From NCBI GenBank assembly GCA_002794785.1, contig NBBA01000001.1, positions 992,001-1,056,000 on the forward strand: a DNA stretch of 64,000 nucleotides, written 5' to 3'. The notes under the pieces were generated by a model that was not told the DNA's origin, ran no database searches, and saw nothing but the letters and a program-made list of their open reading frames with translations. The position numbers and the translations under genes were made by a program. Positions 35,561-63,641 of this stretch are shown here, one piece after another (positions within the stretch are counted from its first letter, which is position 1; every line of letters starts with the position of its first letter). Source of the stretch: Coniferiporia sulphurascens. Taxonomy: Eukaryota; Basidiomycota; Agaricomycetes; Hymenochaetales; Hymenochaetaceae.

Positions 35561-36852
35561 TTCCCCTGCGACTAAATTACATTAATATTGTGATCGTCAC
35601 TACCTTACCACTATTACTACAAGTAGTAACTACTTCCAATCTAGTTGAGCCTTGTATTACTAATCCCAAATATATTTTACTACAAATCTATGGGTTCTCC
35701 TCCTTTTATGAGATATGTGAGGAGAGCAGGCTTCTTTTTATCCCGACTCAGACGAACATGGTCCTCGACACCATCAGCGTCGGGGGGGTCGGGGACTAAT
35801 TTTTGAGCCTTGCGTGCACACTTCTTGGGCTGGTCAATGGTTGCGCCCTCGTTGGGGTCCTCGGATGTAGAGGCTTTCCCAGCCTTGCATGGACGTGCTT
35901 GTTTCTTGGACTGATCAACATTTGTCTCGAGTGGGGGCGAGTCCTCCATGTCTGTCATTGGTGTGGTAGTCACCATGTCTGTTGCCGCTGGACTTGAGAT
36001 TGCTGTGGTCGTCACCGCCGGCTCCATAGTTGTCATGCTCGACAACGGCATGCTTGTTGTCACCAGGATTGTTGACATTGCGCGCATATATGTGCCGCTT
36101 CCTGGATCTTCGTGTGTCCCGTTACTGTTCGTCATTGCAGCCACATCTGCTGCCGGGTCCGTAGTCGTCGCGCCCGACATCGCTGTCACGTTCGCAGTCA
36201 TTGTGCTCATCATTGCATTTGCCGCCCCCAGGGTACCTGTGGTAGTGTTGGTTGCTGCAGCATTCGGCAGGTACATGGGTGCCATGCCTGACGAAGCCGA
36301 CACATAAGGCGGATGTGTCATCGCCATGTTTGTCTGCACATAAGGCAGATACGTCATTGCCATGTTTGTCCGTGCATATGGCACGTACGTATAAGGCGGA
36401 TACATTGTTGCCACCATACTTTTGTAGGTCATCGCTGTGTTGGTCGACGCCGCAATCGAAGCCGAGTAACCCGGGTAAATTGCCATGTTGTAAGGAGGAT
36501 ACAACGGAGGCATGTTCGATGAGGCCGAGTTCGTTGACACCATATATGCTAGCGACGGATGCATCGATGGCGCTGCCGCCCTTGGCCCAGCCACGATTGC
36601 GGGCGGGGATGTGGATGCTACTGGCGCTGGCTCAGGTACGGTGGCAGGTGGGGATACGGACGCTACTGGCGCCGGTGAATATGTAGATGACACCACCATC
36701 CCTGGCTCGGTTTCAATCGCAGGCAGGGATATAGTGCATACCGCCCTTGTTAGGAATTGATGAATAAGCTTGCTTACAAGCTTAGACAACGATACCAGTG
36801 ACTACCAATACAGGAAGGGACTCCCACAGAGACTATCCAGCGATCATTCAAC

Positions 36853-37518
36853 ATGGGGACAGAACTAACTAGAAAACCAGGACTTCTTGGGAACATCAGG
36901 CCAATCACAATGCTCAAGCGACCACTAAAGACTCTTGACCCGTCAATACTCTGCCACCGATGCCGGACCGCATACAATCAATCATGGGAAGCATTTAACA
37001 CAGTAATAACCAAATGCTTTTACATGGCAGGGTACACAAACTGCCAGGTAACTACAGATCACGCTGTAGACCCTATAGGTGATGGCATGGAGGTCAGGGT
37101 AATGCACACGATACAAATGTACATCTTCAATGTACAGGAGTTTTTGCACAATGTCCATGTCCAGACAATAGTGAACCCGCACATACATGACAAGGAATGT
37201 GACCTACAAGTGGTCTCAGGATCCTTCCCATACAGGACGTTGCAGGATAACACATTCCTAGCTAATGCTCACCGATTATGTGCAAAGGTAATCACCCTCT
37301 TCGAGAATCTATCAGCAAAGGGATCGATGACTGCCGATCAACAGATTGGCAATGTTAATCTTTATGTGATAACACTATGGTTATCAAATGGATCACCCCC
37401 GGCACCACCTCCAGGATACACGCAACGTATCACTAGGATAAACCACATTAACGAACCACCAGACAATGTGATTGACGACAGGACACCAACCAAAAGGTAC
37501 CCACCTATGGACCTTTAG
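36853..37518 (+). CDS. LTR-encoded ORF, 221 codons, family I copy 1
   Basis: The frame starts MGTELTRKPGLLGNIRPI about 105 bp inside the LTR and ends DDRTPTKRYPPMDL. Notable are a Cys cluster (LCHRC then KCFYMAGYTNCQVTTDH), possibly metal-binding, and a C-terminal block GYTQRITRIN...DDRTP. The same order recurs in the other LTR family (62938-63585), although the DNA there is very different. The inverted copy at 48770-49435 differs by at least one residue (R to W in the Cys cluster). No known family was recognised; it is not a Gag, protease, RT or integrase. An overlapping 98-codon basic frame (37472-37768) is also open in both copies and may be a frameshifted extension. Confidence 0.75.
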   Translation: MGTELTRKPGLLGNIRPITMLKRPLKTLDPSILCHRCRTAYNQSWEAFNTVITKCFYMAGYTNCQVTTDHAVDPIGDGMEVRVMHTIQMYIFNVQEFLHNVHVQTIVNPHIHDKECDLQVVSGSFPYRTLQDNTFLANAHRLCAKVITLFENLSAKGSMTADQQIGNVNLYVITLWLSNGSPPAPPPGYTQRITRINHINEPPDNVIDDRTPTKRYPPMDL

Positions 37519-37814
37519 CCGATATCGCATTATGCAATTAAGCCACACTCGGCAGGAACCAAAGCGCTTACCAAAGCCAGCCACAAACTCTAAATGGCAA
37601 AGTGTCCAATATGACAAGACAACATGGAGGAACCAGTACAGGAGGCCAACAAGACAAGTTAATGACTTACCAATCATCAAGCCGTTAGGCAGCATCTCAA
37701 CATCAAGCCACTGGCACATAAGACTACAGGGTAGCATGCAGAACAGTGGGGCGATGCACACAGCCTAGGCATCATGGTGAAGTCATTATGATACCATATG
37801 ATGTCCCTATGAGC

Positions 37815-38050
37815 TCAGTGGAGCCTAGTGGAGCATAGTGGAGTGCATGATGTGCAGTGGAGCTCAGTGGAGCACCAACGGCCAATTGTAGATAGTTATT
37901 TCTCATATGATCCTCTAATGAGGTCATTTGCACTGGTATGCAGCTCCAAGTCAGTGGAGCTTATGACGACACTGTGAGGCGTCATAGCTCCAACTGCAGA
38001 GCCTTGTGGAGCATCCGCTTTCAAGTGGAGCTTCTTCTTCATGTATATAA
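37815..38050 (+). promoter_or_regulatory. GTGGAGC motif cluster and TATA box of LTR family I
   Basis: At least seven exact GTGGAGC motifs, one variant and two inverted GCTCCA copies lie in about 220 bp, ending 20-30 bp before TATATAA. This looks like repeated activator sites of an LTR promoter; the binding factor is unknown. Confidence 0.6.
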
Positions 38051-38525
38051 GGAGGGCCTAGACCAGCCTAGACCCCCAGTTTAATTCACCTTCTCAATTC
38101 TCTCAGACTTCTCCTGAGCGAAGTACCAACATCTACCGACTTATTCTTGACTCAATCACACGCCTCAACTCTATCTCGACTACTTGTTCCATCGGCTAAC
38201 CACGGTTACCCTTGGTCCTAACAGCCCTCGACTCAGCAGTAGACATAGGGTTCGTCTTAGGTACTTTTGGCTTACAGGGCCGCTTTGTCCGCTTCTTTGG
38301 AGCAGTCTTCTCCACCGCCATCGACTTCGGATCCGTCACCATCTCTCCTATACGACTGCAACAATGGTACAAAATTCAGATGGTAATAAGTGTTAACTGT
38401 CAGAATTCCTTACAGTTCTGCACTGTCATTCGTAGATCCCCTGGTGTTCGGTGTTACATGGAGGCCAATCGGCCCATTTCCAACTCTAGTAGAGTCACAG
38501 TAGTCAGTTGCAATAAATAGTTCAT

Positions 38526-39860
38526 TCAAGGGTGTACTGACCTGCTCATGTCGCTGACATGGCCTGCGTGCGGCGCAGGCGCCATGGATGAGACCCTCGG
38601 ATTACTTGAACCAACCACCGTGGTCAGATTCCTTCTTTGTGGGACATCACTGGGAAGCAACGCAGGGTCCATGACTCTATAATCGATGTCCGCCTCATGA
38701 CCTTCAGCAGGAGGAAGGACGTCCAATTCAACACCCGGGTAGTTGTCATAACCTGACAACAGATGGTCATGTAGCGCACCATTCATAATGACAGGAGGTA
38801 TCCCTGGCGATTCAACAGACGAAGTCTCTTTGATATTGAGGTCTAAGCACATCAGATTAAATTATGAGTCACAAACGAAAGGATAAATACTCACGATTAG
38901 CCAACGACCTGGCCGACCAATCCTGCCACTGCTTGTCTGGCACAGGAGTATATTTTTGCTTAGAGGACCCAACATGGATGCTTACATACTTTCCGATTAG
39001 AACTTGTTTTATAAATGGCACTGTTCGGTCACTTGCCTCTTCATAATAAATCCTGCTTCCCCCCGGTACGTGTATTGGCAATAAAACTCTGCATCCCCCA
39101 CTTTCATCCGTCCCTGGCCGAGTAAAACACCAAAATAATGAGTGAGTGTACTATCCAACTTCCGCTGGTTCCTTCGGAAATCAATTAGTAAACTATCAAG
39201 ACAAAAATGTCTTAACTCACTTGTAAAGCACGGCGTCTTTGACGGGTTGGTTTGCGAGTGCCTCGTTCTCCTTCGTGAGTCGCAAGGCCTCTGTCGCGTA
39301 CCACTGCACCTTCTCATCGGAGAGTAAGTCAAACTCCCTACTCGCAACAGGGCGTAAAATTCCGATTCGCAGCGTTTTTCCGCCCCCTCGAAGTGCAAGC
39401 TCTTCATCCGTCATCCTGGATATGCGTTTGCCCTCATGGTGAAAAAACATGCTGAATGCGGTATTCTTTGTTGGAGTAGTATGAAAACCCAACTGCATTC
39501 CCATCGAAGCCAAGTCGTCATCAGAGATATCATCATCTGAAAGATATTTTGGGCCTTTGTAGGAGCGAATATGGTTTTGAAACCATCGTCTAAACCTCTA
39601 AATTAACTGACATCAGACTTGACATAATGTCCCAAAGTAATGTGAGCACTCACTGCAAGGAGGATGTTATAATTGGCCTCTGGGGAGTCCGAATGAAACT
39701 TCGTGGCATACTCCTTGAATTGCATTCTGATCCACATCCTCCTCTCATCGTTCATCCTCGTCGAGTCCAGAGCTGCATACGTGGGTAACAACTCCCGACA
39801 GTACATCTCTTCAGGGGATGGGAGGTCCTCGGTTTTGTCTTTCTTTCCCATGTCGAACAC
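38526..39860 (-). CDS. Unknown multi-exon gene or gene fragment
   Basis: The first piece, MFDMGKKDKTEDLPSPEEMY (from 39852), has a donor after the codons of NYNILLA (GTGAGT) and resumes near 39603 as RFRRWFQNHIRSYKG, then ISDDDLASMGMQLGFHTTP. Further open pieces (VPGGSRIYYEEASDRTVPF near 39085-38990 and DLNIKETSSVESPG near 38845) could be later exons. The composition is protein-like with GT-AG joins, but no family was recognised and the 3' end is uncertain. It lies just downstream of the SPT5-like pseudogene on the same strand and could be part of the same unit. Confidence 0.4.
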
Positions 39861-40255
39861 GGTATTAGATGCGCTCAGACGCAGTCAATGAGGGGGCAAA
39901 AAGAAAGGGCTGAGAGTACTGGGTCTGACAGGAGAACACGGGAGACTGAACTGACCAGGTACAACATATCTAACCTTATTGAGTAATGTGAAGAAACCAT
40001 TGCTGATACATGTGACGATATTCCTTGGGAACGGTCCTGTGCAAATAAGATCAGAAAAGTCCGAGAGATACTTACCCAATTAAGGCACTTCGTCTTTGGT
40101 GATCAACACCGATGGGCGGGTAATTAGAAGTTGTGTTGATCGTGTTGATCGAATTGTACATTTTCTGATGTAAAGGGTTTAATCTTGATAAAGAAGAAAT
40201 GTGTACGTTACATTGTCCTGATATGGAGAAAAATATCAAATTAAAAATAAAGTTC
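39861..40255. other. Spacer between unknown gene and SPT5-like pseudogene
   Basis: AT-rich; no gene supported. Confidence 0.4.
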
Positions 40256-42701
40256 CTACCGGCTCCCAGCCAGGTTATCCACAACAGTTAAATTTACGAG
40301 AGGCTCGGACCACTTTGAGCGTCTGTCCTCCAGCCTGCATACTATTGCCGTTTTTTCGACCCCCCCCTTCGGTAGACCCAGTACAAGCAAGACTTTCCTG
40401 ACAGCATCTTTTTCTGTGCCGCCAATAACCATTACACTGAGGTTTTTTTTATCTGGATGTCGAGGGCCTAGTTCTAGAACAGGTACGGTGGCCGGGGACG
40501 TCTTATATCCATTGCTGAGGTGGATAGTCATATGGCATCGGTCATGCGCGTGCACACATTTATCATGGTCACCTGCGACCCACTCAGGCGCCGTGTACCC
40601 GATGCGACGGCCAAGATGCCTCACATGTATCCTGTACACGGCAGACTGTGCCAGTACTGCTGGCGAAAAAAGCCACATGCCACTTGGGGAAAAATCTGAA
40701 AATTTCGATTCATCAGTAGCTTTTCTAGAAGCCTGTAGCCCTGTTATCCATACCGGTAACAGGCGGTAGGGAAGAAGGGCCATCCCGTTCGACCCTGTCG
40801 CTTTGGCCGACATGCCACGCATCATCGGCAGAAGTGTCAGGTTCGATGGGAGGGGGTGTGGCTTGCCACTCTCGCGTCTTGCCCTTTTCAATCAGGCCTA
40901 ACTCCCGGAACGTCGCAGCATAGGTCATCCTTTCTTCTACAGAAAGAGGTGTCACATTGTCTAAACACGTAATGGAGCATCTGGAAATAATTACAAGTAA
41001 ATTGATCCATAAGACTTCACAAGACGTCGAAACTTACACTGAAATTAGATGTGTGAGCTCAATGTTATCGACCGTGTTGGAACCATTTATGGCAACTTGT
41101 GTGGTCTTTTTGATCGGATGACTGTCCAACACATATCCATAAAATCCTTTCGCATGCTTGTTTGACCGTATCAGCACGAAGAGACCTGCAAATGGGTCTC
41201 ACCATGTAAAGGACTCCACCGTTTTTGACCCAATCTTAGTATCTGATTTAGACACTTTTTCCACAGGATCTGCACGTTGTTGCTTGAACATCTCCAGCCA
41301 CTTAGTTAGGACTCGAACCTTGTCCTGCATTCGTAACCATTATTCACTCTAGCATTTCATATTGACTCACCTGTTTTGAGTGGGAACCTTCTGTGACATG
41401 AACGACTGTAGTATCCTCCTCGATGCTTATGACCATTCCAACTGTATCCATGTGGGGGCCCATACATATTACCACGTTGTCACCAGGTCCCAGTACGCGA
41501 CTAACCTCCTCGCAAGATATTTCCAGTATTTTGCTTCCATCACTTTCGGGCATTCCGATCAAGTCACCAATCCAAATGACGTTGTCATCCATGGACTTGA
41601 TGATGCCCATGACAGATACAAATGTGCCTGCTACGACATTTACTCTGTCACCGCGATGCAAGAATGGGTTTCCTCGCTCAAGACAGCCTAAGCCATAACC
41701 GCTACGAAGAAATAATGATATTTCGCTGAGGTCAGGCTTCGCTGCCTTTACGTGATGTAACCCGGTAACTGTCTTCACCCATAGACCATGCACGTACAGG
41801 TGACGGCGAAATACATATGCGTTGCTGCCTGTGTCCTGCACATCTTCGTCATCACATGTCAACGCTACCTCCTTGGTGTCGAAGAGTTTTGCTGTCGGCC
41901 TTACATTGGGATTGGAGCCTTTCAGGGCGATTCGAGGGACAACAACTACCACAAGCACATCACCGATGAGAACATCTATGACCATGGCGTAGTCTCCTCG
42001 GAAAAGGCCTTGACGAAATGCGACCCAGTCGCCATCCTTAAGGTGCTGATAGTCTTCACAGTTCCTATCTCATAGTCCCAACACTGTAGACTGCTCTTCA
42101 CTAGGGACGAAACGGATCCTCGCTCTCTTGAGATATTGCAAGGACAAACAGGCCTGACAAACAACTTCAGTGCTTGGCGCTTGAATGTAGAACCTGCCAG
42201 GAAGAGCTTTTACAGCAAACGCCGAGCAGCTTTCAGGTAGTCGAGCATTCATGCGTGCAGCATTGGCTTCTTCCTTTTGCGGCTAAAGTACAAGTAGGCT
42301 TAAAAATCCACGTATACTCAAGACAGAGGACATCGCTCACTGGTGAATAGATCATCCAGAGGATTATCGGGTCTTCCCCACTCGTGTCACCAAGTTCCTG
42401 TCTACTTCTCTTCCTATACCTGGCAGCTAAAGCCATAAGGTCCTCCTGACTGGTCAAATTTTCCTGGTGCGGCGTCCGCATGGAAGTCGTTGTTGCGTGT
42501 TCATCGAAGGCGACTCCATCATTGATGAAATGTCCTGCATATCAAACTGTATCAGTATTCCCTATTTTTCGTCTGAGAACATCGCACATACTGTCTTCCT
42601 CCTCCAGAAGGTTGTCGTCATCGTTGTCATCGTTCATCTGCGCGGCCTCCATGTCCAAGAATTCGAGTATGTCCATGTCTCGTGGGCGTTTTGTCGGCAT
42701 A
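40256..42701 (-). pseudogene. SPT5-like protein (acidic N terminus, NGN and KOW domains), decayed
   Basis: The start MPTKRPRDMDILEFLDMEAA is followed by an acidic stretch (DDNDDDNLLEEED), as in SPT5. Then comes an NGN-like part (AFAVKALPGRFYIQAP...CLSLQYLKRARIRFVPSEE) and KOW-like parts (GDWVAFRQGLFRGDYAMVIDV...PRIAL; LHRGDRVNVVAGTFVSVMGII; LGPGDNVVICMGPHMDTVGMV). SPT5 couples these to RNA polymerase II elongation. In-frame TGA codons at 42072-42070 and 41201-41199 cut the frame, with homology continuing in the same frame beyond both. The NGN block is shorter and more diverged than expected for the essential SPT5, so this is probably a divergent paralogue in the TE-rich zone rather than the housekeeping copy. 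Confidence 0.65.
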
Positions 42702-44102
42702 CTGTTGACAATGTGAGCAACGTGCAGCTCCTTCCCTTGTCACGACATACCTTGTTCAGTCAGGGATTTACTCCTAGAAACTTAGATTAATCTAGCCTGG
42801 TTCACTTATTTTATTACTGGGTTACTTATTGTAATGTCATGCTTTTTATATTGCAATTGGACGGTACTAATAAGTATGATGTAAGGCTATTATATGGCCA
42901 ATACAGGCTGTGACTGGCCCGATAACAGAAGAGGGCACAGCACCTTCTGTACGTGGTGGTAGGAAAGAGAAGTAGGAGCCGGAACCAAATTCGGTATGTG
43001 ACTTCTTGTTGTGCCATGGTCTGTGAGAACCGGTTACAAATTGTGGCTTCTACTGTTCTAGGCACAGTCTCCCGACTTTGCCAAGTACATTGCCACAGTC
43101 CCTGGCTGTCTTATGACTAGTTAGCTTCTATAATAGTTAGTTCAAAGTATATTTAGATATATGCATATGTCCTTCTGGTTCGGACACGTTTCACTCTAAC
43201 CATGTGAAAATATAGAACATGCGGAACTAAACATGCGGCCCGATCAATCGATCGAGCTTAGGTTGGCATTCTCGCAGACAATGGAGCGCCATCGTAAAGG
43301 TTCGATTCCGAGTGCATTCGGCTTCAACACATGTAAGTCATCTTGCACCATGAACAGGGGCAAGCACACCCGCATACAAAGGTGGCTATGTTGCGTGGTC
43401 TTCCTCATATTAGGTTTGATAACTACTTATGAGTTCGAGTCGTACATCTGACTATTATATGCTATTAGAATGGGCCGGAAAGTCTTAAGTCACCCCCTTT
43501 TACATGAAACTGAAGTTAAAAAAATAGAATGTACCTATGAGCCTGAACAACCCCAAAGTCTCTGTATGACTTCCTCCCCTGCTGCTGAATTATAATTGGA
43601 GTCTGATGTGTTACCCAGGTGAGGTTCAGCACATATAGAAAGCTTACTGAAATGCTCACCTTGTCAACTGTACCCTCGACTGGCCAAAGAAGTAGAGCAT
43701 ACTATTGACACCCTTCGAAACTAAGTCTACGAAAGAGCCTACTGTGTCTACATCCTCTACTGCAGTTCTCACTACTGGCCCAGGTTCGAGTATTCAGTGG
43801 TTTCAAATCCAGATAACGACTTCAGTTGTGGTGAGACACAAACAGCGAGTACTTGCAGGAAGCCTAACGCAGCTCAGGAAGGAGGACAGGAACGCCCTTT
43901 CGATATCTCCGTGCAAAGTGTTGAAGCACATAACATCGACGCGTCTAATCCTACGTCCAAGGTCTGTTGCAATTCTACTGTGGGCTTTTCTTGCGCACTC
44001 TCATCCTTTCTTCGACCACACTCCCTTTTCCAGACTGTCCCTTCTCCTACCACCACCACTGCCCTCTTCTACCACCACCACCACCACCACCTATCACCTC
44101 CC
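42702..44102. other. Intergenic, TE-rich region
   Basis: Only short frames without support. A T-run/CT-rich stretch from about 43970 to 44100 fits the promoter of the next small gene. Confidence 0.4.
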
Positions 44103-44507
44103 ATGGCCATGAACCCGCCCACTGTCTGGTACAACGAAAACGTGTACAAGACACACAGAGTCTTCAAGTACCGCTGTGAAGAGGCGGCTTGGGCAGCCGG
44201 GTGGTACCTGCACGGGTACGCACTCGTGCAGGCGAAGATTCAGTGAGTTTTTCTTTTCATTTTTCTCTTTATTTGCTTACCTGGTCACAGTGCCTGCATG
44301 CACAAGTCGAAGGACCGTCAGCGACACCTGACGGTCGAGTACCTTAAGTGGTGCAATGGTGTCATTGTCTTGACGAAGACGATCCACATCCCATATTATG
44401 GAGATGTAAGTTCGTCTATATTCCTTGCTTGTTCACAGTTACTAATGCAGTTTCAGTATGAATATGGCTTCTTCGACATGAACAGTATCCTGCAGTATAT
44501 ACATTAG
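44103..44507 (+). CDS. Small tandem-family protein, copy 1 (101 residues)
   Basis: Three exons: 44103-44242, 44291-44405, 44457-44507. The product begins MAMNPPTVWYNENVYKTHRV and ends FFDMNSILQYIH. Shared with copies 2 and 3: WYN near the start, AAWAAGxYLHGxxLVQAKI, HLTVExLKW, VxLTxTIHI and a C-terminal LLQYIH. Intron positions and phases (2 and 0) are identical among copies. No signal peptide, membrane segment or known domain was seen. Regular hydrophobic alternation suggests a small folded beta-rich protein. Function unknown. Confidence 0.7.
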
Positions 44508-44846
44508 AGAATTGTCTAGCCCTTTCTAGTTATCCTTCTGACTATTATACCTACATCTTCCTATATCTTAATGCTCCGTTGTACACTTGCTTTCATGTTG
44601 TTCTTACACCCTTTTGCTGTTGCGCTTGGTCTCGGTCTCGGTTCCACTCCCTATCATTTTCTTTTTCTTTTTCATTCTCATTCTCACGGTTCAGTCACAC
44701 ACCCTTTTTAGCTCTTGCCCACACTCGTTCCTCGCTCCCTCTGTCTCTCTCTCTCTCTTTCATTCACTCACTCACTCTTGTTCGCCCATCCGTGCTCTCC
44801 ACCCTCCTTTGCCTCCCCTTCCCTTTCCAACCACCCACCACTTAAA

Positions 44847-45259
44847 ATGGCCACCTTCCCCCCTGTCGTCTGGTACAACGACATGGCGTACTCGACCCGG
44901 ATCGACTTCAAGACCCTGTGTGAGCAGACGGCATGGGCTGCCGGTCTGTACCTGCATGGGTTTTCACTTGTGCAGGCGAAAATTCGGTAAGTTGTCTTTT
45001 TTCATACCTTGTTTCTGTACTGAGCTTGTCCCAGCTGCGGCATGCATAGGTCAGAGTTCGACGGTCACCAGCACCTGACCGTCGAATTTTTAAAGTGGCA
45101 GGACGGGTTCGTTGTCCTGACACGGACAATACACATCGTCTACCATGGGAATGTAAGTCCTGTATCACTTTCTCATCTGGTCTGCATTACTTATATTTGC
45201 TCCTTAAGTATGAACATGGGGTCTTTGATATGAGCTGCCTTCTCCAGTACATCCATTAG
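44847..45259 (+). CDS. Small tandem-family protein, copy 2 (102 residues)
   Basis: Three exons: 44847-44986, 45035-45152, 45209-45259, with the same intron phases as copy 1. The product begins MATFPPVVWYNDMAYSTRID and ends VFDMSCLLQYIH. A CT-rich promoter stretch (about 44640-44830) precedes it. The frame and splice sites are intact, so this and copy 1 are the candidates for function. The 3' flank at about 45540-45670 is shared with copy 3, showing that the duplication unit reaches well beyond the gene. Confidence 0.72.
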
Positions 45260-46007
45260 ATAACTTTCTGGTTACCTGCCTCCTCTTCCATTTCATAATC
45301 TCAATTAATTTAGCATTGTATATTGCTTTCGTCATCACTACTAGTATTGTACATTCTACTTGCTTATATGCCTTGCTAGGTTATTACCTCATCATGGTCT
45401 TTTGTAGCCTTATTATCATTTACGTTGTATCCTCCCACTCCTTGTTGTAGTGTTGTTATAATAGCCTGTATTGTCAAGCCCTTTTTATTTATGATTTTCC
45501 CTGTGCATTTAGGTCTGCCCCAACTGCATATAATGTTCATGAGGCTCATGTCAATCAAAACCCAGAAAGCTTATTTTGGCCCTGAATGGATGCAGCAGTT
45601 CTTGTCATGAGATGTTGCTTAAAGTTCAATTCTCATGCAGCGTGGTCACTTAAATCCGTGCGTCCCGAGAACCAACTTGAAGGTCATTCTCAACATAGTC
45701 TATATTGGCCCATTCAGCGTATCCACACACCGCTCTTTGATAGTTGTCCATTACAATTCACTTACCCCAACATATTGATATCCGAGAATCAATGTTTCCC
45801 ATTTGGCTATCTAGTTCACTAATGCTACTTATTTTCTGGTATATCCGGTTGTAAATGTCTAGATCATCCCCTTACAATTAGAAAGTCTTATGCCTCCCAA
45901 TGCGATGCCATGCTCTGTCCATCGACCTGCTTTGTGCCCCGCAGAGACTAAAATGCTAATCAGAGAGAAAAAGGGAGGACAAGGGCATCCAATAAATCAG
46001 CGTTTTG

Positions 46008-46812
46008 CTAAAGTAGGTACTGCTCACCCCAGAAAGCAGGGAAAATGCGGCTGCCCACATTGAATCCGAGAAGGATGGCCTGGGAGGCGAAGAAGACAGT
46101 CGCGAGTGACTTGGGTCGCCTGTACACAGCTTCGAGGTAGACTTTCTCGCCGCCTGAATGCGGGAACATCGTACCTAGTTCCAACGATATGAAGAGCCCT
46201 GCGAAGGAGAGCGTGAAGCCCAGCACCCACATGAGAGAGGCGCCGACAGACTGGACCGAAATGAGGATGGAGGAAGGCATGGAAAACATACCTGTATCGA
46301 TGATGTGACCGATCCAGCTTCGATGTAGATTTTCTCGCCCCCCGAATGCGGGAACATCGAACCTAGTTCCAATGATAACAAGAGCCCTGTGAAGGAGAGC
46401 ATGAAGCCCAGCACCCACAGCATTAGAGACATGTTGACGGACTGGAACGAAATGAGGATGGAGGAACATGTGGAGAACATACCTGTACCGATGATGCGAC
46501 CAACGCTAAACTCGAGTTCAGATTAGTCTTGACCTGTATCACTGATAAGCAAACGTCTATGTACATGGGAGCGTGCAACTGAATACACAGAGATGGCGGC
46601 CCATGCCGCCGGCTGCATCTGCTCGCTTTGCTCAGTAATTCGAAAGTACACTGTAGGAAAGGTAAGATTCGCTCACCAGCACCTGGATGCAAAGATGGGT
46701 CTACAGCCATCATCTGCTCAGTGTGATCTGTAGTGAAGGTTCGGATGTCCAGCGCCGTCTCCCGACCTTTTTCCTCCTTCTTCTCGTTTTCGACTGAGGC
46801 AGCATGATCCAA
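46008..46812 (-). pseudogene. LAT/Mup1-type amino acid permease fragment, internally duplicated
   Basis: Two nearly parallel segments encode the same first transmembrane region: GMFSTCSSILISFQSV...MFPHSGGEKIYIEA (about 46480-46320) and GMFSMPSSILISVQSV...MFPHSGGEKVYLEAVYRRPK (about 46300-46110). The GxGxF-x-P/S-SSI and FPxSGGEK motifs belong to methionine/LAT-type permeases of the APC superfamily. Only about two of the usual twelve membrane segments are present, so it is a relic. It is wedged between copies 2 and 3 of the small tandem family. Confidence 0.75.
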
Positions 46813-46992
46813 AGTGGAATTCGTCGTCCTACTAAAGCAACTGATCGAGGGGGGACATGGTGCGGCTGATCGAGGCGCACAGCCGAGCCGTCAGGGGATG
46901 TACAAAGCGGAGACACACTTGTTGCCCGCCCTTCTTTCTCTTCTACCACCACCACCCTCCACCTCCACCACTCCATCCACCTCTCCTTTCCA

Positions 46993-47404
46993 ATGGCCGC
47001 CTTCCCATCTGTTGTCTGGTACAATGCAAATGTGTACTTGACATGAGAGGCCTTCAAGTCCTCTGTGAAGATGCGGCCTTGGCAGCTGGCAGGTACCTGC
47101 ATGGGTACGCACTCGTGCAGGCAAAAATCCGGTCAGTTTCTGCCTTTTTCAAGAACATTCTTTCTCTTACCTGGGTTTCAGGGCCTGCATGCACAGGTCC
47201 GAAGGAGACAATTGACTGCATCTGATGGTCGAGTTCTTAAAGTGGCAGGGCGGGTTCATCGTCCTGACGTGGACGATACACATCGTCTACTGCGGGAATG
47301 TAAGTCCTGTGTCAATTTCTTGTCTCTCCTCCATTACTTATGTACCCTGAAATAGTATGAATATGGGTTCTTTGATCTGAGCTGCCTCCTTCAGTACATA
47401 CATT
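46993..47404 (+). pseudogene. Small tandem-family, copy 3, broken
   Basis: It starts MAAFPSVVWYNANVYLT, then hits an in-frame TGA at 47044-47046 and loses the frame of the AAWAAG block. The later exons are recognisable (VEFLKWQGGFIVL; YEYGFFDLSCLLQYIH) with the same intron positions. The 3' flank matches that of copy 2. Confidence 0.75.
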
Positions 47405-48064
47405 AGATGATTTCCTGGATCCCCTTCTTTTTCTTTCCATACTATGACCATCTTAATTTCACTTAGTTTACCGCTGTATCTTGCTTTTGCTGTTGCTTCA
47501 GGTATTGTACAATCTAGTCATCGTTTTTATGTCGTTGTGTTCTTTTGTATCCTTAGTATTGTTAATGTTGTATTATCCCACTTCATGTTGTACCATTGTT
47601 ATAATACCCTGTACTGTCAAGCCTTTTTCCTCTATGAGATTCCCTGTGCATTTAGGCCCGCTGCAACTGCATATAAGGTTCACGAGGATCGTATGTCGAT
47701 CAAAACCCAGAATGCTTATTTTGGCCCTGAATCGGTGTGGCACTTCATGTCACGAGATGTCGCTTAAGGTTCAATTCTCACGCAGCATGGTCAGTTAAAT
47801 CTGCGTGTCCCAAATGCGGACAAGCCAACTCTCTTGACCAGTGACTACCACATAGGTCGCTCAAAGTCAAATTAATTTCCTGCACGAGGGTTATGTTTGC
47901 CACTCGCTCTGCCATGCTCGTATAATTAAATATTCTTATGGTCTGCATTGGCAATGTCCTTGCTGTTTTGTGAATGATCTAGATATGTTGTCTGATGCAT
48001 AGTCGATCAATCTCATGTACCTAGATATTCGCTTAAATTCAAAATGCTCGGCTGAATTGTTCAG
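47405..48064. other. 3' flank of copy 3 and spacer
   Basis: It contains the duplicated flank shared with about 45540-45670 (around 47690-47820). No gene seen. Confidence 0.5.
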
Positions 48065-49540
48065 TGTTAGGACCAAGGGTAACTGTGGTTAGCCGATGGA
48101 ACAAGTAGTCGAGATAGAGTTGAGGCGTGTGATTGAGTCAAGAATAAGTCGGTAGATGTTGGTACTTCGCTCAGGAGAAGTCTGAGAGAATTGAGAAGGT
48201 GAATTAAACTGGGGGTCTAGGCTGGTCTAGGCCCTCCTTATATACATGAAGAAGAAGCTCCACTTGAAAGCGGATGCTCCACAAGGCTCTGCAGTTGGAG
48301 CTATGATGCCTCACAGTGTCGTCATAAGCTCCACTGACTTGGAGCTGCGTACCAGTGCAAATGACCTCATTAGAGGATCATATGAGAAATAACTATCTAC
48401 AATTGGCCGTTGGTGCTCCACTGAGCTCCACTGCGCATCATGCACTCCACTATGCTCCACTAGGCTCCACTGAGCTCATAGGGACATCATATGGTATCAT
48501 AATGACTTCACCATGATGCCTAGGCTGTGTGCATCGCCCCACTGTTCTGCATGCTACCCTGTAGTCTTATGTGCCAGTGGCTTGATGTTGAGATGCTGCC
48601 TAACGGCTTGATGATTGGTAAGTCATTAACTTGTCTTGTTGGCCTCCTGTACTGGTTCCTCCATGTTGTCTTGTCATATTGGACACTTTGCCATTTAGAG
48701 TTTGTGGCTGGCTTTGGTAAGCGCTTTGGTTCCTGCCGAGTGTGGCTTAATTGCATAATGCGATATCGGCTAAAGGTCCATAGGTGGGTACCTTTTGGTT
48801 GGTGTCCTGTCGTCAATCACATTGTCTGGTGGTTCGTTAATGTGGTTTATCCTAGTGATACGTTGCGTGTATCCTGGAGGTGGTGCCGGGGGTGATCCAT
48901 TTGATAACCATAGTGTTATCACATAAAGATTAACATTGCCAATCTGTTGATCGGCAGTCATCGATCCCTTTGCTGATAGATTCTCGAAGAGGGTGATTAC
49001 CTTTGCACATAATCGGTGAGCATTAGCTAGGAATGTGTTATCCTGCAACGTCCTGTATGGGAAGGATCCTGAGACCACTTGTAGGTCACATTCCTTGTCA
49101 TGTATGTGCGGGTTCACTATTGTCTGGACATGGACATTGTGCAAAAACTCCTGTACATTGAAGATGTACATTTGTATCGTGTGCATTACCCTGACCTCCA
49201 TGCCATCACCTATAGGGTCTACAGCGTGATCTGTAGTTACCTGGCAGTTTGTGTACCCTGCCATGTAAAAGCATTTGGTTATTACTGTGTTAAATGCTTC
49301 CCATGATTGATTGTATGCGGTCCAGCATCGGTGGCAGAGTATTGACGGGTCAAGAGTCTTTAGTGGTCGCTTGAGCATTGTGATTGGCCTGATGTTCCCA
49401 AGAAGTCCTGGTTTTCTAGTTAGTTCTGTCCCCATGTTGAATGATCGCTGGATAGTCTCTGTGGGAGTCCCTTCCTGTATTGGTAGTCACTGGTATCGTT
49501 GTCTAAGCTTGTAAGCAAGCTTATTCATCAATTCCTAACA
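48065..49540 (-). repeat. Solo LTR, 1,476-bp ORF-bearing family, copy 2
   Basis: The same length as copy 1 in opposite orientation, with its own exact duplication TTCAG (48060-48064, 49541-49545). It is nearly identical to copy 1 throughout, including the GTGGAGC cluster and TATA box, so both insertions are young. Confidence 0.94.
48770..49435 (-). CDS. LTR-encoded ORF, 221 codons, family I copy 2
   Basis: Intact frame, equal in length to copy 1. One visible residue change (R to W in LCHRC-R-TAY) comes from a C-to-T change at a CpG. See copy 1 for motifs. Confidence 0.75.
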   Translation of the reverse strand: MGTELTRKPGLLGNIRPITMLKRPLKTLDPSILCHRCWTAYNQSWEAFNTVITKCFYMAGYTNCQVTTDHAVDPIGDGMEVRVMHTIQMYIFNVQEFLHNVHVQTIVNPHIHDKECDLQVVSGSFPYRTLQDNTFLANAHRLCAKVITLFENLSAKGSMTADQQIGNVNLYVITLWLSNGSPPAPPPGYTQRITRINHINEPPDNVIDDRTPTKRYPPMDL

Positions 49541-49545
49541 TTCAG

Positions 49546-51207: not shown

Positions 51208-54005
51208 GTAGGTGACGGCTGCAAAAGGGGTACGGTTGTAAAGGGTTGTCAACGGGGTCGCAGTTGCAAAGGGTTGTTGGTGGGCTTCAAGTCCCTGAAG
51301 GGAGCCAGGAACTCAGGTATGAAAATTCCATATCTTAGAACATTTGTGAAGAGCAGTATGTACCTGTGAAGAGTGATGTACCCAAAAATAAGATTGAGTT
51401 TATCAATCGGAGCGAAACCCGGTCCGCCAGACTTGACGACTGATGGAAAAGAATGTCCGACAATGGTGGGAGGTCGTCGGCACCTTTGGGAGTGTACCTC
51501 GAGGACAAACTCTGAATTCGTGGGGGGATTGCACAGGCTTTGACGTTTCTTGCAAGGTGAGTCCGATCTGTATACCAAATGTTGTAATGTAATTGTGACT
51601 GAAATTGGATATAGACAAGGAGATTATACACTCACGTTAATGGCTTATCGTGACACTAACGAGTTGTTAGACTCATTCAGAGGGGGGCCTTCCAGCAGTC
51701 GATTGGGGAGGAGGTGCTTCAAAAAGTTGCCAATTATACCAGAAGTCACTTTGTGCGAAATGAGAATAGTCCGAGTTCAGTCTCACGTTTCAGTCAGGGT
51801 CACAGAAGATGGGTCTCTAAATGTCCTTGGGACAAATGACTTTGTTGACTTGCAGCAGACAAAGAGACTCAAAGTGGGCAGTGTAAGTCCATCCTGTTGC
51901 ATTTCGTCATGCAGTTTATAATTCATGCCCTCAATCCTCACATATAAGGAGAATGACCAGGTCGGGGGTGAATCGAATGCGATCCTCCCCAATGTCGATG
52001 GACCTCCCTCAGAAAATATGGATGAGAACAAGGAGACCAAGGTACAAGTAAGTTTTCTTGGGGTCATGATATGCGCCATTCTAACATCCTTCAATGAAGG
52101 ACACCATGGATAACGAGGACGATCCTGTACGGGGCCAGGTGAGATGCGATTAACTTTCTACGGAACCATGCAATAATTCGGCTTTCCATAACAGAAGGCA
52201 GCCGATTTCTTGGGCGCATACCTACCCAAACTGGCAGAGATTCAGAACGCCATGTTTGCGCACGAGGCATGTGCAGGTGTGGAAGATCCATGCTCATGCC
52301 TCAGCAGCGAAAAGCACCTGTACAGGTGCTCCGATTGCGATGTTAGCGAGGTGGTATGCGGGGAATGTCTCATGAAGTCTCATGCACGAATCTACTTCCA
52401 TTGGGCAGAGAAGTGGAATGGTCGATATTTCGAACAGAAGAGCATGTCGGACGATGACCTGGGACTCCAAATATACCTAGGCCATGGCAGCGCTTGCTGC
52501 CCAAATGCGACTGCATCGGAAACAGCTTCGTTGAGCGTGACTGACTGGAACGGGTTCCATGATTCGTGCAAGGTCGTTTACTGCTCGTGTCTCTTTCGAG
52601 AAGAAGAATACCTGCAGCTCATCTGACACAGTCTCTTTCCCAGGTCGGTGAAGGCGCCTGTATCAGCTGTAACATTCCGCTGCCTTAAGGACTTCCATAT
52701 CCACACACATGCCAGTCGAAAATCGGTGTTCGACTACGTGAAAGGCATACAGCGGAAGACAGATGACAACAATCCGTCCTCTGTGCCAGTAAGCTCAATT
52801 TGTTTTCGCTTGATTCTGAAACTAATGAATTTTAAGCCCCGTGATAAATACTTCACATGCATTGCACATATATGGCAATACGTGATTGCTGAGCACGAGA
52901 GTGGTCAATTGCATGACATTGATCGCCATATCACCTTCAGACCCAAGGGGTCTTTTGCGGAGGTGTGCATGGCATGTCCCATCCCAAGGGTTAATATGCC
53001 CTCCAAATCGATGTCAGACACCGAAGACAGTCCTTCGGAAAGCAAGCTGTTCGTCACCTTGGCTATCTTTGTAGCTCACTAATGACCAGTTTGCTATTTC
53101 AGGCATCTCGACACGTTGTACATGTGTATGGATGGCAATTTTAAGCTTATCAATCTCAAGAAAAAGAATAATGTGCTGGACCCAGCGCTGTGGAATGGGT
53201 GGGGTTATATGCATGCAAAGGGACCTGTTGACGAGCATATCAAGAAATTTGCTAATATTAAGATTGAGGTTAGTCTACTTGCTTTACAGATGCGAGCGTG
53301 AGCGATCTGACTATGGTGCAGAAAGGCCATTGCCACGAGTTCGAGGCAATACTAAATTGGAACTCCCTGAAATATGACAAGCAGAGTGTATCTGGCGTTA
53401 TTATGATATTATGTCAACATGGCCTCATCCACCCGGATTGTGCCGTTAACCTTAACGCTGGCGAAAGGCGAGTGGCAACAATACATAAGATACAAATGCT
53501 GACAGCAATCGTCCTGATAGGTTCGTTATGGGCGACAAAGCGCTTGAAGGCGTGCTACAGCTCACGGAAGATATTCCACAGAAGGTCCTCGCATACGATA
53601 TTGGATGCCAGTACTGCATCAATCTGCAGTACAGGTTTAGTATCCAGTTCCCTCATGTACATGTCGATGACATTGCCATTGCAGTTGGAAAAATGCATTT
53701 GCAGAATCACATCAAAGATTGCCAGTGGCGATTCTCGCTGAATTATTTTGAAGCAGTGGGTCGCCTAGACGGAGAGGAAGCAGAGCGATGGTGGTCGGAA
53801 GCAAACCAAATCGCAGGGAGTATGAAGCAGATGAATCCGGGGCATAGAGACGACATGTTGGACGACAGTATAGGTGATTGGAACAGACGCAAAATGCAAA
53901 ATCAAGGTATTTATTGCACTTCTGTTGGTTTCAATGTGCTAATAGAACTCCAGCGGAAGTCATCAGGTGCAAATTACCGAAGACCAGAATTCTTGCTGCT
54001 GATAA

Positions 54006-55355
54006 TGTTAGATTCGCTCCCTGAGTAAGGGATTGGAACAAGTGATAACAGATTCACACAGTAATACTAGTTAGTTTAGGGTAGGCTTGTTACCCTTCAC
54101 TCACTAGAGTGTTAGAGCTGATGATGGTGGTAAGAGACAAGAGATGAATTAAACTGCTTTTTACTGCAATTTTACATTGGGCTTTTATACCCTACATGTT
54201 GTAGACTATTTACTATGTTCTGGTAGATACTACAACATACTACTCTTGATTTATAAGTCATAGGAATATTCTGGTACAATCCTGTACATGCTATTTACTA
54301 TTCTTAGCTTCCTATGAGTCAGTCATATATTCCGGTACATTCTACAGCCTACTGTGCTATCTTTATCTTATGCCAGAACCTTCCCTGAGTTTCCATCGAG
54401 TCATACAGTACAATACCTAAGTTAACCATTCTTGGATACTACTATACCTATGATGCTTCTCCTTATTTCCTAATTGGTTCTGCTATACAATGTGCTATAC
54501 TTGGCTCCCATCAATTGTGTCTTCTAATTGATTGCCATGCTCCCATTGGCTAATCTTAGCCAAACACTTAGATATACTTGTATGGCTCAGCGATTATGCT
54601 AGCCTTCTTAATCTTATCTTATTGTGGCTTGTTACTTATTACTGTAGACTAAGATTGAGTCATTCCTTCCATGATATTGTTAAAAGGGGTTCGTTCTGGT
54701 GTTCTATCGTCTATTGGCATAAAGAGCGCTTCGGGTCCTATAGCGTTTATATTTGTTATTCTGCTATACCCTGGTGTGACTCTATATGACAGTTTGTCAT
54801 TGAACCATCATATTATAATCTCTTTATCTATTGGTACTAACTCCTGTCTTAGATTTGGTTCCTTTTGATCTACTGTTGTGTGTCCTTTGGCTATGAAGTT
54901 GGCTTTGTATGTGAATAGTTGTTCTCGTAATTGTTTATTGATAGTATGTACTATTTGGTGTGCCGCTTCTGCACAGTCAGTTGATGTAATAACCGCCCTT
55001 TGATAACATAATTCATTATGTGGCTGATTATAAATCTTGGTTCTTGTGTAAGCGCTGATTACATATCTATTCAGTTGATATGAGAACATAGTTGCTCTAT
55101 GTTCTATTATTACTTCTAGCCTTTCCGCCACTTGTTGTTCCCTTGTAGTATGATCAAATGTAATTTGACAGTTATCATATCCTGCATTCTGTCCTACTGT
55201 TGCACATGCAATATTAAACGCTTTCCATGCTACTTGATCTGCATCTTTACAGCGTTGACATAGGTTCCTGGTATCGATTAAAATTACGGGTCTTGCCATG
55301 TCGATCTTGATAATCTGTCAATCCGGCGATCACAATTTTCATCAATTTACTGACA
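54006..55355 (-). repeat. Solo LTR, ~1,350-bp ORF-bearing family, copy 1 (inside KDZ transposase)
   Basis: It is flanked by an exact GATAA duplication (54001-54005, 55356-55360). On its own strand it reads TGTCAGTAAATT...GCGAATCTAACA, with a TATAAAAG box near 54189-54182 and an ORF in the first half. No internal region is attached. Confidence 0.93.
54640..55299 (-). pseudogene. LTR-encoded ORF, family II copy 1, truncated by TGA
   Basis: It starts MARPVILIDTRNLCQRCKDA and reads 163 codons to a TGA (54810-54808) where copy 2 has CGA. The frame then continues with WFND...YRVTPGYSRI-like sequence. Confidence 0.75.
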
Positions 55356-56888: not shown

Positions 56889-56894
56889 GTATTT

Positions 56895-56927
<33 letters not shown>

Positions 56928-57300: not shown

Positions 57301-57374
57301 TACCTCGGAGACAAGAGCTTCCTTACGATCTTCCGACAGCGCCTTCGCTGCAAAGACTTGATCTTATTACACCA

Positions 57375-58783: not shown

Positions 58784-59344
58784 TGTTAAGCTCAACGGTT
58801 ACGCGGTGATTGACGTCGGGGCTTCCTGATTGTCAGAACTGATGGTACGGCAATGGGGCTTCCTAGATGTCGTAAGTCGAGGGATGATCGTCGGTGGGGC
58901 TTCCTGATCGACGATGTGGACGCGGTAGGCTTCTGAGAGCGAGTCGGGTTACGACGAAGTGGTTAGTGGCACACTGGCGCACAGTAGACTGGTGGTAGCA
59001 GATAATGGGCTTGTATGAACAAAGAGCACAAGCTTAGGGCTTGTGCTACTGAAGTTACATGCTTATATGCTACTCTATGTGTTTTGCCACTGTAGTGACT
59101 TGGTTAGGTATGTTTACCAGACTATGGACTGTTGTGGAAACTCAAGGAAGGCCTTGGTAATACAAGTATGGTGATCAGTAAGCAAAGCACGTCATGATGG
59201 TGCAATACGGCGTCATCATGGTGTCTTATGGCATAAGGGGAATAAGGATGAGTAAGGCAGAGAAATGGGGGAGTTGCGCTGACTGATGGTGATGAAGAGG
59301 AAGTGAGTCAGCGCAATAGGGAAAGTGAAGGGAAAATTGTAACA
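58784..59344 (+). repeat. Solo LTR, 560-bp family, copy 3
   Basis: TGTTA...TAACA ends with an exact CGTAC duplication (58779-58783, 59345-59349). Same GGGGCTTCCT motifs and hairpin as the other copies. Confidence 0.94.
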
Positions 59345-59837
59345 CGTACCTTCAGACCACACTGCAAGAACTCTCATCAAAAGAATATCTGCGATGACGG
59401 TTTGTGAGAAGTATGAGAGACTTGAGAGAACGATTCGTACAGTCTATCAGAACTATGGTCATCCAGTCTGGATTCGGGATAATTATTAACCTGTCTCCCT
59501 TTACTAAAAGTGAGGGATGGTTACCTCCTATGTCATTGGCCCACACAGAAAATTTTCCTGTAATCAGAATTAGCTCGCATTCTCGAGAAACGGCCGGGGT
59601 TCCACTCAAACCCAGAATGTCGCAAAATTCCTGAGTTAATAATAATACAATGTGGTGTCAAAGGTGCGACAAACCCACAGTTCTATATTCGTGTGGAAGG
59701 AGCCTGCTGAACTAATCTCAGTAATTCTTGTCGCTCTGTAAATCAGTCAAACATGAGAGCGCAGCTGTGATAATCGCTAACACAGTGAAAATCCCTAAGT
59801 ATTGATTCTTTAATGAAGATACTTAACCTGTCCTGTC
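59345..59837. other. 493-bp spacer between head-to-head solo LTRs
   Basis: An 85-codon minus-strand frame (59609-59352) is open but unrecognised. Confidence 0.3.
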
Positions 59838-60395
59838 TGTTACAATTTTCCTTTACTTTCCTCTACTGCGCTGACTCACTTCTTCTTCGTCATCATCAGT
59901 CAGCGCAACTCCCCCATTTCTCTGCCTTACTCATCCTTATTCGCCTTGCGCCATACAACACCATGATGACGCCTTATTGCACCATCATGACGTGCTTTGC
60001 TTACTGATCACCGTACTTGTATTACCAAGGTATTCCTTGAGTTTCCATGACCTTCCATAGTCTGGTAAACACACCTAACCAAGTCGCTACAGTGGCAAAC
60101 ACATAGAGTAGCATATAAGCATGTAACTTCAGTAGCACAAGCCCTAAGCTTGTGCTCTTTGTTCATACAAGCCCATTATCTGCCACCACCAGTCTACCAT
60201 GTGCCACTGTGCCTATAGTCGCTTCGTCGTAACCCGACTCCGCTAAGAAGCCTACCGCGTCCACATCGTCAATCAGGAAGCCCCACTGACGATCATCTTC
60301 GACTTACGACATCTAGGAAGCCCTGTTGCTGTACCATCGGTTCCGATGATCAGGAAGCCCTGACGTCGATCACTGCATAACCATTGAGCTTAACA
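59838..60395 (-). repeat. Solo LTR, 560-bp family, copy 4
   Basis: Inverted relative to copy 3. It is flanked by CTGTC (59833-59837) and CCGTC (60396-60400), a 5-bp duplication with one T/C difference. Confidence 0.9.
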
Positions 60396-61582: not shown

Positions 61583-62294
61583 ATGCCACACCAATATAAT
61601 CTATCTATTTGTCAAGCTGGTGTGGAGCATGAGGCTAGACTAGCCACTGCCTTAGAAGCTCTTAATGCTGGCCATTGCAAAAGTATTAAGCAGGCTTCCT
61701 GTGAATTTAATGTTAAATATGATCCTCTCTATAATCGGTACAAAGGGATTCATAATAATAAATATGCTGCTAGGGAGGGACAACAACTCCTAAGCAATGC
61801 ATGGGAGAAAGTTCTTGTTGACTGGTTAGTTTTCCTAGGATATTTGGGACATGCAGTCAGCCAAAAGACCATTTATCCCATGGTTAAGGACTTATGTGGC
61901 AGAAAGCCATCGAGGAAATGGCTCTGTGCCTTTAGGGACTGGCATCCTGAACTCAAGCTTGCATGGTCGACAGGTCTTGACCCAAAGCGAGCCCAAGCTT
62001 TTAATCAGACAACCATAATGAACTACTTTGATATTCTTGAAAAGACTCTTTCAGACCACAATATACCCTGGGAGAATGTCTATAATATGGATGAGAAGGG
62101 CATTCAAATGGGTGGAGGTCGAAAAAGACAGCGGCAGAAGTTCTTTTTTAGCAAAAACCAGAGGGTACGAACTAAAATGCAGTCAGCAGACCTTCAGTTG
62201 GCAACTGTCATAGAATGTGTCTGTGCAGACGGCACCACAGTCGATCCAGGATTCATACTTGAAAGCCAAGCTGGCTATTGTCCAGAATGGTTTG

Positions 62295-63641
62295 TGTTAG
62301 ATTCGCTCCCTGATTAAGGGTTAGAAACAAGTGATAACAGATTCACACAATAATACTAGTTAGTTTAGGGTAGGCTTGGTACCCTTCACTCACTAAAGTG
62401 TTAGAGCTGATGATGGTGGTAAGAGACAAGAGATGAATTAAACTGCTTTTTACTGCAATTTTACATTGGGCTTTTATACCCTACATGTTGTATGCTATTT
62501 ACTATGTTCTGGTAGATACTACAACATACTACTCTCGCTTTATAAGTCATAGGAATATTCTGGTACAATCCTGTACATGCTATTTACTATTCTTAGCTTC
62601 CTATGAGTCAGTCATATATTCCGGTACATTCTACAGCCTACTGTGCTATCTTTATCTTATGCCAGAACCTTCCCTGAGTTTCCATCGAGTCATACAGTAC
62701 AATACCTAAGTTAACCATTCTTGGATACTACTATACCTATGATGCTTCTCCTTATTTCCTAATTGGTTCTGCTGTGTGATGTGCTATACTTGGCTCTCAT
62801 CAATTGCGTCTTCTAATTGATCGCCCTGCTTCCATCAGCTATTCTTAGCCGAATGCTTAGATATAGTTGTGTGGCTCAGTGATTATGCTAGCCTTCTTAA
62901 TCTTATCTTGTTGTGGCTTGTTACTTATTACTGTAGACTAATATTGAGTCATTTCCATTGTTTTGTTGAAAGGGGTTCTTTCTGGTGTTCTATCATCTAC
63001 TGGCATAAAGAGCTCCTCAGGCCCTATAGCATTTATATTTGTTATCCTGCTATACCCGGGTGTGACTCTATATGACGGTTCATCATTGAACCATCGTATT
63101 ATGATTTCCTTATCTATTGGTACTAACTCCTGTCTTTGGTTTGGTTCCTTTTGATCTACTGTTGTGTGTCCTTTGGCTATGAAGTTGGCTTTGTATGCGA
63201 ATAGTTGTTCTCGTAGTTGTTTATTGATAGTGTGAACTATTTGGTGTGCCGCTTCTGCATAATTGGTTGATGTAATAACTGCCCTTTGATAACATAATTC
63301 ATTATGTGGCTGATTATAAATCTTGGTTCTTGTGTAAGTGCTGATTACATATCTATTCAATTGGTATGAGAACATAGTTGCTCTATGTTCAATTATTACT
63401 TCTAGCCTTTCTGCCACTTGTTGTTCCCTTGTAGTATGATTGAATGTAATTTGACAGTTGTTGTATCCTGCATTCTGTCCTACTGTTGCACATGCAATGT
63501 TGAATGCTTTCCATGCTACTTGGTCTGCATCTTTACAGCATTGGCATAAGTTCCCGGTATCAATTAGAGTTACAGGTCTTGCCATGTCGATCTTGCTAAT
63601 CCGTCGATCCGGTGATCACGATTTTCATCAATTTACTAACA
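62295..63641 (-). repeat. Solo LTR, ~1,350-bp ORF-bearing family, copy 2 (inside pogo-like transposase)
   Basis: It is flanked by an exact GTTTG duplication (62290-62294, 63642-63646). On its own strand it reads TGTTAGTAAATT...GCGAATCTAACA; TATAAAAG lies near 62477-62470. Close to the copy at 54006-55355 along its full length. Confidence 0.94.
62938..63585 (-). CDS. LTR-encoded ORF, 215 codons, family II copy 2 (intact)
   Basis: It starts MARPVTLIDTGNLCQCCKDA about 56 bp inside the LTR. Features: LCQCC...NAGYNNCQITFNH (Cys cluster), a helical middle, and GYSRITNINAIGPEELFMPVDDRTP near the end. Order and motifs match the family I ORF at 36853-37518, where the equivalents are LCHRC, AGYTNCQVTTDH and RITRINHI...DDRTP. 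It is not similar to standard retrotransposon proteins as far as can be judged by eye. Confidence 0.75.
   Translation of the reverse strand: MARPVTLIDTGNLCQCCKDADQVAWKAFNIACATVGQNAGYNNCQITFNHTTREQQVAERLEVIIEHRATMFSYQLNRYVISTYTRTKIYNQPHNELCYQRAVITSTNYAEAAHQIVHTINKQLREQLFAYKANFIAKGHTTVDQKEPNQRQELVPIDKEIIIRWFNDEPSYRVTPGYSRITNINAIGPEELFMPVDDRTPERTPFNKTMEMTQY

Follow-up and report, generated by a model that had tools for sequence, protein, structure and literature searches.

A conserved reading frame under purifying selection lies within two families of probable solo LTRs in the fungus Coniferiporia sulphurascens

The assembled genome of the basidiomycete Coniferiporia sulphurascens comprises 39.3 Mb in 31 contigs. 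The window analyzed here is a stretch of 64,000 nucleotides from contig NBBA01000001.1 (C1:992001-1056000), and it contains four insertions with the features of solo long terminal repeats (LTRs), two from each of two families that we call A and B (Table 1). The 5' ends of the four read TGTTAG (TGTCAG in one family B copy) and the 3' ends read CTAACA. The initial annotation of this DNA had described four solo LTRs, each containing an open reading frame (ORF) of 215-221 codons. Its coordinates, ends and protein motifs held on reexamination, and each of the four copies was found to have its own 5-bp target site duplication (TSD). The ORF is intact in three of the four (221, 221, and 215 codons), but the fourth LTR (54006-55355) departs from the description in that its frame is broken by a TGA at 54808. 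The window also contains a KDZ transposase, whose frame ends at one of the family B LTRs, together with its CxC2 cluster, a combination indicative of a mushroom-forming basidiomycete.

Table 1. Window positions of the four putative LTRs, their ORFs, and the putative promoter features of the first family A copy
Feature	Position	Strand	Remarks
Family A LTR, solo, 1476 bp, TGTTAG...CTAACA	36748..38223	+	TSD GCCCT at 36743-36747 and 38224-38228
Family A LTR ORF, 221 aa, intact	36853..37518	+	Selection measured in family A
TATA-like box TATATAAGG of the A LTR, LTR position 1297, directed out of the 3' edge	38044..38052	+	Sequence
Motif CAGTTTAATTCACCT, 33 bp past the TATA box; 14 of 15 bases common to family B	38077..38091	+	A-B DNA comparison
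Family A LTR, second copy, inverted, solo, TSD CTGAA; 99.66% identity to first copy	48065..49540	-	
Family A LTR ORF of second copy, 221 aa, intact	48770..49435	-	
Family B LTR, solo, 1350 bp, TSD TTATC; at end of KDZ transposase frame	54006..55355	-	
Family B LTR ORF, broken at 54808-54810 by a TGA (163 aa up to it; the frame continues to 54649)	54649..55299	-	
Family B LTR, solo, 1347 bp, TSD CAAAC	62295..63641	-	
Family B LTR ORF, 215 aa, intact	62938..63585	-	Selection measured in family B

Units of both families have TGTTAG...CTAACA ends, as expected of LTRs, with single-base variants in a few copies. Among 51 whole-length copies, 22 are flanked by a perfect 5-bp TSD of their own, and the number rises to 25 when one mismatch is allowed; the other 26 lack a match within one mismatch, six of them being explained by an exchange of TSDs between neighboring copies (loci L042, L046, and L048, discussed below). 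A TATA box is located at position 1297 of 1476 in family A and at position 1162 of 1347 in family B, directed outward through a tail of about 180 bp, and CAGTTTAATTCAYCT is found in both families 33 bp past it. This arrangement is consistent with a promoter in U3 followed by a short R-U5 tail, which is the layout of an LTR. Above the level of shuffled sequences, the DNA shared by the two families is limited to 18 bp at the start of the 5' edge and to the 15-bp motif past the TATA box; each of these scores was reached by 2 of 500 shuffles, and both segments are expected of LTRs. Measured from the 5' LTR edge, the ORF starts 105 bp (family A) or 56 bp (family B) inward, and 460-530 bp separate its end from the TATA box downstream. 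As judged from these signals, the whole ORF would lie inside U3, on the sense strand and upstream of the LTR promoter, a layout like that of the sag gene of mouse mammary tumor virus (MMTV).

Copies of both families are found throughout the genome. Searches with edge patterns that allow up to two mismatches located 80 family A LTR 5' edges and, with a second pattern, 176 B-type 5' edges, B3 included, compared to 0 in the controls. Both counts are complete at this tolerance, with positions recorded for the first 100 of the B-type edges. Sequence searches covered the best 150 of 315-323 candidates in each protein search and the best 40 of 98 and of 231 candidates in the DNA searches. The subfamilies seen among the protein matches listed are A, B, B' (84% identical), and B3 (at least 22 copies, about 60% identical to B). 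By hand counts among these matches, the frame is free of stops in 13 of 62 near-full-length copies of family A, in 27 of 150 for B (two of which are partial), and in 1 of 22 for B3. Nearly every stop in the decayed copies is TGA, the product expected when CGA decays at methylated CpG. The ORF is carried, intact or decayed, by many solo LTRs of this genome. Copies of A and B contain nested insertions of two further LTR-like families (about 560 and 426 bp); no stop-free stretch longer than 100 codons was found in 24 copies of these shorter families. They also occur as solo insertions with 5-bp TSDs, suggesting that solo insertions are common in this genome.

The proteins of families A and B are 26-31% identical over ~195 residues (about residues 20-214), with E values of 4e-20 to 9e-17, whereas an alignment of the ORF DNA is no better than that of shuffled DNA (its score was reached by 55 of 500 shuffles). 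This agrees with the claim in the initial annotation that two families with strongly different DNA encode proteins of the same layout. That annotation had also proposed selection on the protein, a proposal that a dN/dS ratio near 1 or the loss of the frame in other copies would speak against. Both points were examined, and the ratios are far below 1 within the families and between B subfamilies. Within families, once twins with >99% identity had been removed and CpG-affected sites left out, 18 nonsynonymous (N) and 27 synonymous (S) variants remained in 16 copies of family A, and 49 N, 62 S, and one stop in 26 copies of family B. The neutral expectation for N/S, with transitions weighted threefold, is 2.9 for A and 3.0 for B (2.6-3.7 for weights of 1 to 4), giving observed/neutral ratios in the ORF frame of 0.23 and 0.27, respectively, compared to 1.4-2.2 in shifted frames and 0.9-1.3 in the noncoding LTR downstream. 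Third codon positions account for 26 of the 44 variable non-CpG ORF sites in family A (14.1 expected) and 58 of the 100 in family B (32.6 expected), an enrichment equalled in 1 and 0, respectively, of 20,000 permutations. At CpG-affected sites, N/S among shared variants is near 1.1 in both families.

Comparisons between B subfamilies gave dN/dS values of 0.26 for B-B3 (0.26/1.02), 0.22 for B-B4 (0.29/1.33), and 0.19 for B-B' (0.08/0.42), and comparisons between copies of one subfamily gave 0.32 for B3-B4 and 0.25 for two B' copies. The true values are probably lower because B3, B4, and B' are decayed copies. Synonymous sites are saturated in the A-B and A-B3 comparisons. The frame recurs in A, in B, in further subfamilies and in two sequences from outside this genome, yet most single copies contain at least one stop. 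The outside sequences, P0001 (199 aa) and P0002 (124 aa), are public proteins from tiny contigs and clear relatives with open frames; B3 copies of this genome reach 86% identity to P0001. The frame and its protein are conserved, under purifying selection, in two families that have diverged until their ORF DNA can no longer be aligned. The prevalence of interrupted copies, with stops that are nearly all TGA, could instead point to a chance or fossil frame that seems conserved because the copies are young. However, TGA stops fit the decay of CGA at CpG sites, and a frame of this kind would not be expected to show a frame-specific depletion of amino acid changes in two families relative to shifted-frame and noncoding controls, protein homology where the ORF DNA has none, or dN/dS values of 0.19-0.26 between subfamilies. 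We consider this explanation extremely improbable, as it is refuted by the observed/neutral N:S test with its controls.

In an alignment of 21 proteins, residues C14, C17, C44, H50, H67, H94, and C98 (B numbering) are invariant, a pattern compatible with metal binding. The invariant CxxC, C, H, H, HxxxC series hints at a metal-stabilized protein, and our guess is that it may be nuclear and act on element RNA or DNA in export, transcription, or silencing. The proteins of families A and B had no Pfam match over the cut-off, and no sequence match in the PDB was better than E 0.77. The predicted outline, of low confidence, is a helix, four strands, and a helix. The structure models have mean pLDDT values of 43 and 48 and gave no confident fold, with no PDB match at a Foldseek E value of 0.001 or below; a low-confidence model weakly matched the annealing domain of RAD52 in Foldseek, with E values from 0.035 and a TM of about 0.2.

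One interpretation of a protein that matches no known retroelement protein is that a host gene was captured once by an LTR, carried along, and kept for a function of the host and not of the element, and LTR elements are known to capture host genes (noted in PMC7264820). However, by their identities the best 150 of 315-323 candidates in each protein search belong to A, B, B', or B3, without a separate host gene being apparent among them (the DNA context was checked for part of these matches). In addition, the LTRs of both families have the gene at the same position, as would fit a long-standing component of the element. Capture of a host gene appears very improbable.

The initial annotation had also advised a search for complete elements with gag-pol between two such LTRs. 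In this genome we found no two direct copies flanking a PBS, gag-pol, and a PPT. Among the 51 copies, no sequence abutting the LTR at either edge is common to two copies, and the sole match between downstream flanks, which starts 45 and 7 bp from the edge, pairs one A copy with one B copy. Only two direct family A pairs lie within 15 kb of each other among the 80 A 5' edges, and in each of them one LTR bears its own perfect TSD (L036 and L038). The lack of such an element is expected if the copies are solo, and it weakens the assignment to LTRs of a retrotransposon without refuting it. No fixed offset to A or B was observed for gypsy integrase among 79 matches (81 of 81 candidates scored), for gypsy-type RT among 36 short matches compared (drawn from the best 150 of 1034 RVT_1 candidates), or for copia RT among the best 150 of 191 candidates. 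Eight integrases have a same-strand LTR copy 3.4-5.1 kb downstream, compared to six with a copy on the opposite strand. The pol regions of two of these eight loci do not match each other, and the LTR at a third (L043) has its own perfect TSD. Because no complete element was found, the assignment to LTRs is based on ends, TSDs, and promoter layout, and we infer the link to gag-pol.

The same observations, namely that no internal region is common to the flanks of any of the 51 copies, that no retroelement partner lies at a fixed distance, and that the protein is under selection, could be accounted for by a stand-alone transposon of 1.35-1.5 kb with TGTTAG/CTAACA ends and 5-bp TSDs, which would not be an LTR and whose protein of 215-221 aa would be its own transposase or mobility factor. 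We regard this as unlikely. The outward TATA box and the shared motif follow the ORF, at a distance of 150-185 bp from the 3' edge, where they would be without evident use to such a transposon. Moreover, the matching inverted ends are only about 6 bp long, no transposase family was matched in Pfam, and the two shorter LTR-like families are likewise solo with 5-bp TSDs.

Recombination between LTRs would explain why only solo LTRs were found. Of ten inverted pairs of same-family neighbors, nine are 99.1-100% identical and the tenth (L038) is 95.0% identical, although nine of ten is not an unbiased proportion, since most pairs were picked for alike scores (the window A pair and L038 were not). 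For comparison, the family medians are 94.0 and 93.3%, and five direct pairs are 89.8-93.7% identical. The TSDs of the inverted copies are exchanged in L042, L046, and L048 (one base differs in L048), which is the trace left by a crossover between inverted LTRs. The window A pair, L043, and L044 are separate insertions as judged by their own TSDs (with one mismatch in one L044 copy), and L047, which has shared 5' flanks, may be part of a longer inverted repeat. Among the protein matches listed, same-family neighbors within 15 kb are inverted in 31 cases and direct in 16, compared to 26 and 26 for neighbors of different families; the whole census of family A has seven inverted and two direct pairs within 15 kb, too few to prove a bias. 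Given that inverted pairs are often nearly identical and that three have exchanged TSDs, LTR-LTR recombination has been active in this genome. Frequent recombination and gene conversion between nearby LTRs would be the simplest account. Direct pairs, including the two LTRs of one element, would collapse to a solo LTR, and inverted pairs would be homogenized or flipped. Complete elements would then be missing because nearby LTR copies recombine efficiently.

We think it likely that these insertions are the solo LTRs left by a lineage of fungal LTR retroelements in which U3 holds an accessory gene of 215-221 codons. The accessory protein is placed like MMTV Sag, and its expression is probably from the 3' LTR. 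A complete element would have the 3' LTR copy of the ORF begin 56-105 nt past the polypurine tract, as the last gene of the genomic RNA; this RNA would start at the promoter of the 5' LTR and end in the R region of the 3' LTR, with the ORF ending well before R. New insertions would bring in two copies of the gene, of which one would remain after collapse to a solo LTR. Because the LTR promoter lies 460-530 bp past the end of the ORF, a solo LTR has no evident promoter for it. Formation of solo LTRs is one of the usual routes by which genomes disarm LTR elements, as all genes are removed. Here the gene sits in the part that survives, and thus a young solo LTR is a potential gene copy.

Alternatively, the gene may turn the solo LTR into a lasting selfish unit, with copies that are transcribed from the promoters of upstream or nested LTRs and affect LTRs in trans. 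This idea is quite improbable in our estimation. Recombination events in which gag-pol is lost leave the accessory gene in place, so solo LTRs would persist as a pool of protein-coding copies. In trans, these copies could keep LTRs from being silenced, assist the movement of related elements, or promote the LTR-LTR recombination by which inverted pairs are homogenized. The weak RAD52-domain matches of the structure model are compatible with a recombination-promoting role but do not support it.

The gene inside an LTR that is best known comes from a mouse retrovirus, MMTV, in which sag is a superantigen ORF in the U3 of the LTR. The likeness of the fungal accessory gene to sag is one of layout, as both ORFs lie in U3 upstream of the LTR promoter, hence in both LTRs, and are positioned for expression from the 3' LTR. 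In contrast, the fungal gene belongs to another host kingdom and to a lineage known here from solo LTRs alone, and Sag is a type II membrane glycoprotein, whereas the fungal protein has conserved cysteines and histidines. The lentiviral nef and foamy-virus bel genes run partly into the U3 of the 3' LTR. These are likewise accessory genes at the 3' end of the element that use U3 sequence, but they overlap U3 only in part, whereas the fungal gene lies wholly inside the LTR.

Extra ORFs have also been described in LTR retrotransposons. Those of plant elements and of Botrytis Boty, termed aORFs, resemble the fungal ORF in being conserved, of unknown function, and usually located towards the 3' end of the element; unlike it, they belong to the internal region according to the available portion of the source, in either sense or antisense orientation and for the most part between pol and the 3' LTR (PMC7264820). 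Bdelloid rotifer elements have an ORF3 apart from gag and pol, with enzyme-like domains (DEDDy and GDSL), which is similarly a family-specific third ORF added to gag-pol; none is placed in an LTR in the text available (PMC5408684). The crapaud LTR family of Podospora resembles A and B in being fungal, in having many solo LTRs, and in comprising subfamilies with divergent U3. However, the legend of its diagram names only gag and pol ORFs, the divergent U3 is <200 bp, and no LTR ORF is mentioned in the text available (PMC10787394). Descriptions of fungal LTR elements mention gag and pol only in the portions available of two sources (PMC3248453, PMC10787394). The initial annotation was aware of no described fungal example of this protein family, and we found no report of an LTR-coded fungal protein in the full-text literature searched, mostly by title and abstract opening, with most subscription papers outside its scope.

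A conserved LTR-coded protein outside the vertebrate retroviruses, in fungi, would imply either repeated origins of this layout or a greater age than has been assumed. The fungal protein is easily cloned, which could make it useful for testing accessory-gene roles in export, silencing, or transcription. For genome annotation, many small reading frames of this genome are element genes and not host orphans.

Among close inverted pairs of solo LTRs, nine of the ten compared, a partly selected set, are 99.1-100% identical. Judged by their 5-bp target duplications (TSDs), both copies of the family A pair in the window (36748-49540) were separate insertions, as were those at two other genomic loci, L043 and L044. 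At three inverted-pair loci (L042, L046 and L048) the target duplications are swapped, which is the mark of inversion through LTR-LTR crossover. Family A copies also lie head-to-head at L041 (contig C2, 526437-526715) and L052 (contig C8, 1866270-1866514), with about 210 and 175 bp, respectively, between their 5' edges.

Genome-wide, almost every in-frame stop in copies of families A and B is TGA, and many amino-acid substitutions belong to the Arg/Gln/His/Trp, Thr/Met or Pro/Leu groups, a pattern which indicates that old copies have decayed strongly at CpG sites.

Copies of both families host nested insertions of two other, mutually related LTR-like families, one of about 560 bp with ends TGTTAAGCTC...AATTGTAACA and one of 426 bp. 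At many loci they are present as solo copies flanked by 5-bp TSDs; 24 copies contained no stop-free stretch longer than 100 codons. A KDZ transposase reading frame enters the family B LTR at 54006. The frame around the copia-type reverse transcriptase (RT) match is stop-free for at least 1327 codons in the window and 1625 in the genome.

Other features in the window
Feature	Position	Remark
Copia-type RT match	2500-3249	within long open frame of 1-3984
LTR-like insertions (~560 bp)	9199-9759, 11639-12197, 58784-59344, 59838-60395	
KDZ transposase fragments and CxC2 cluster	52210-54028
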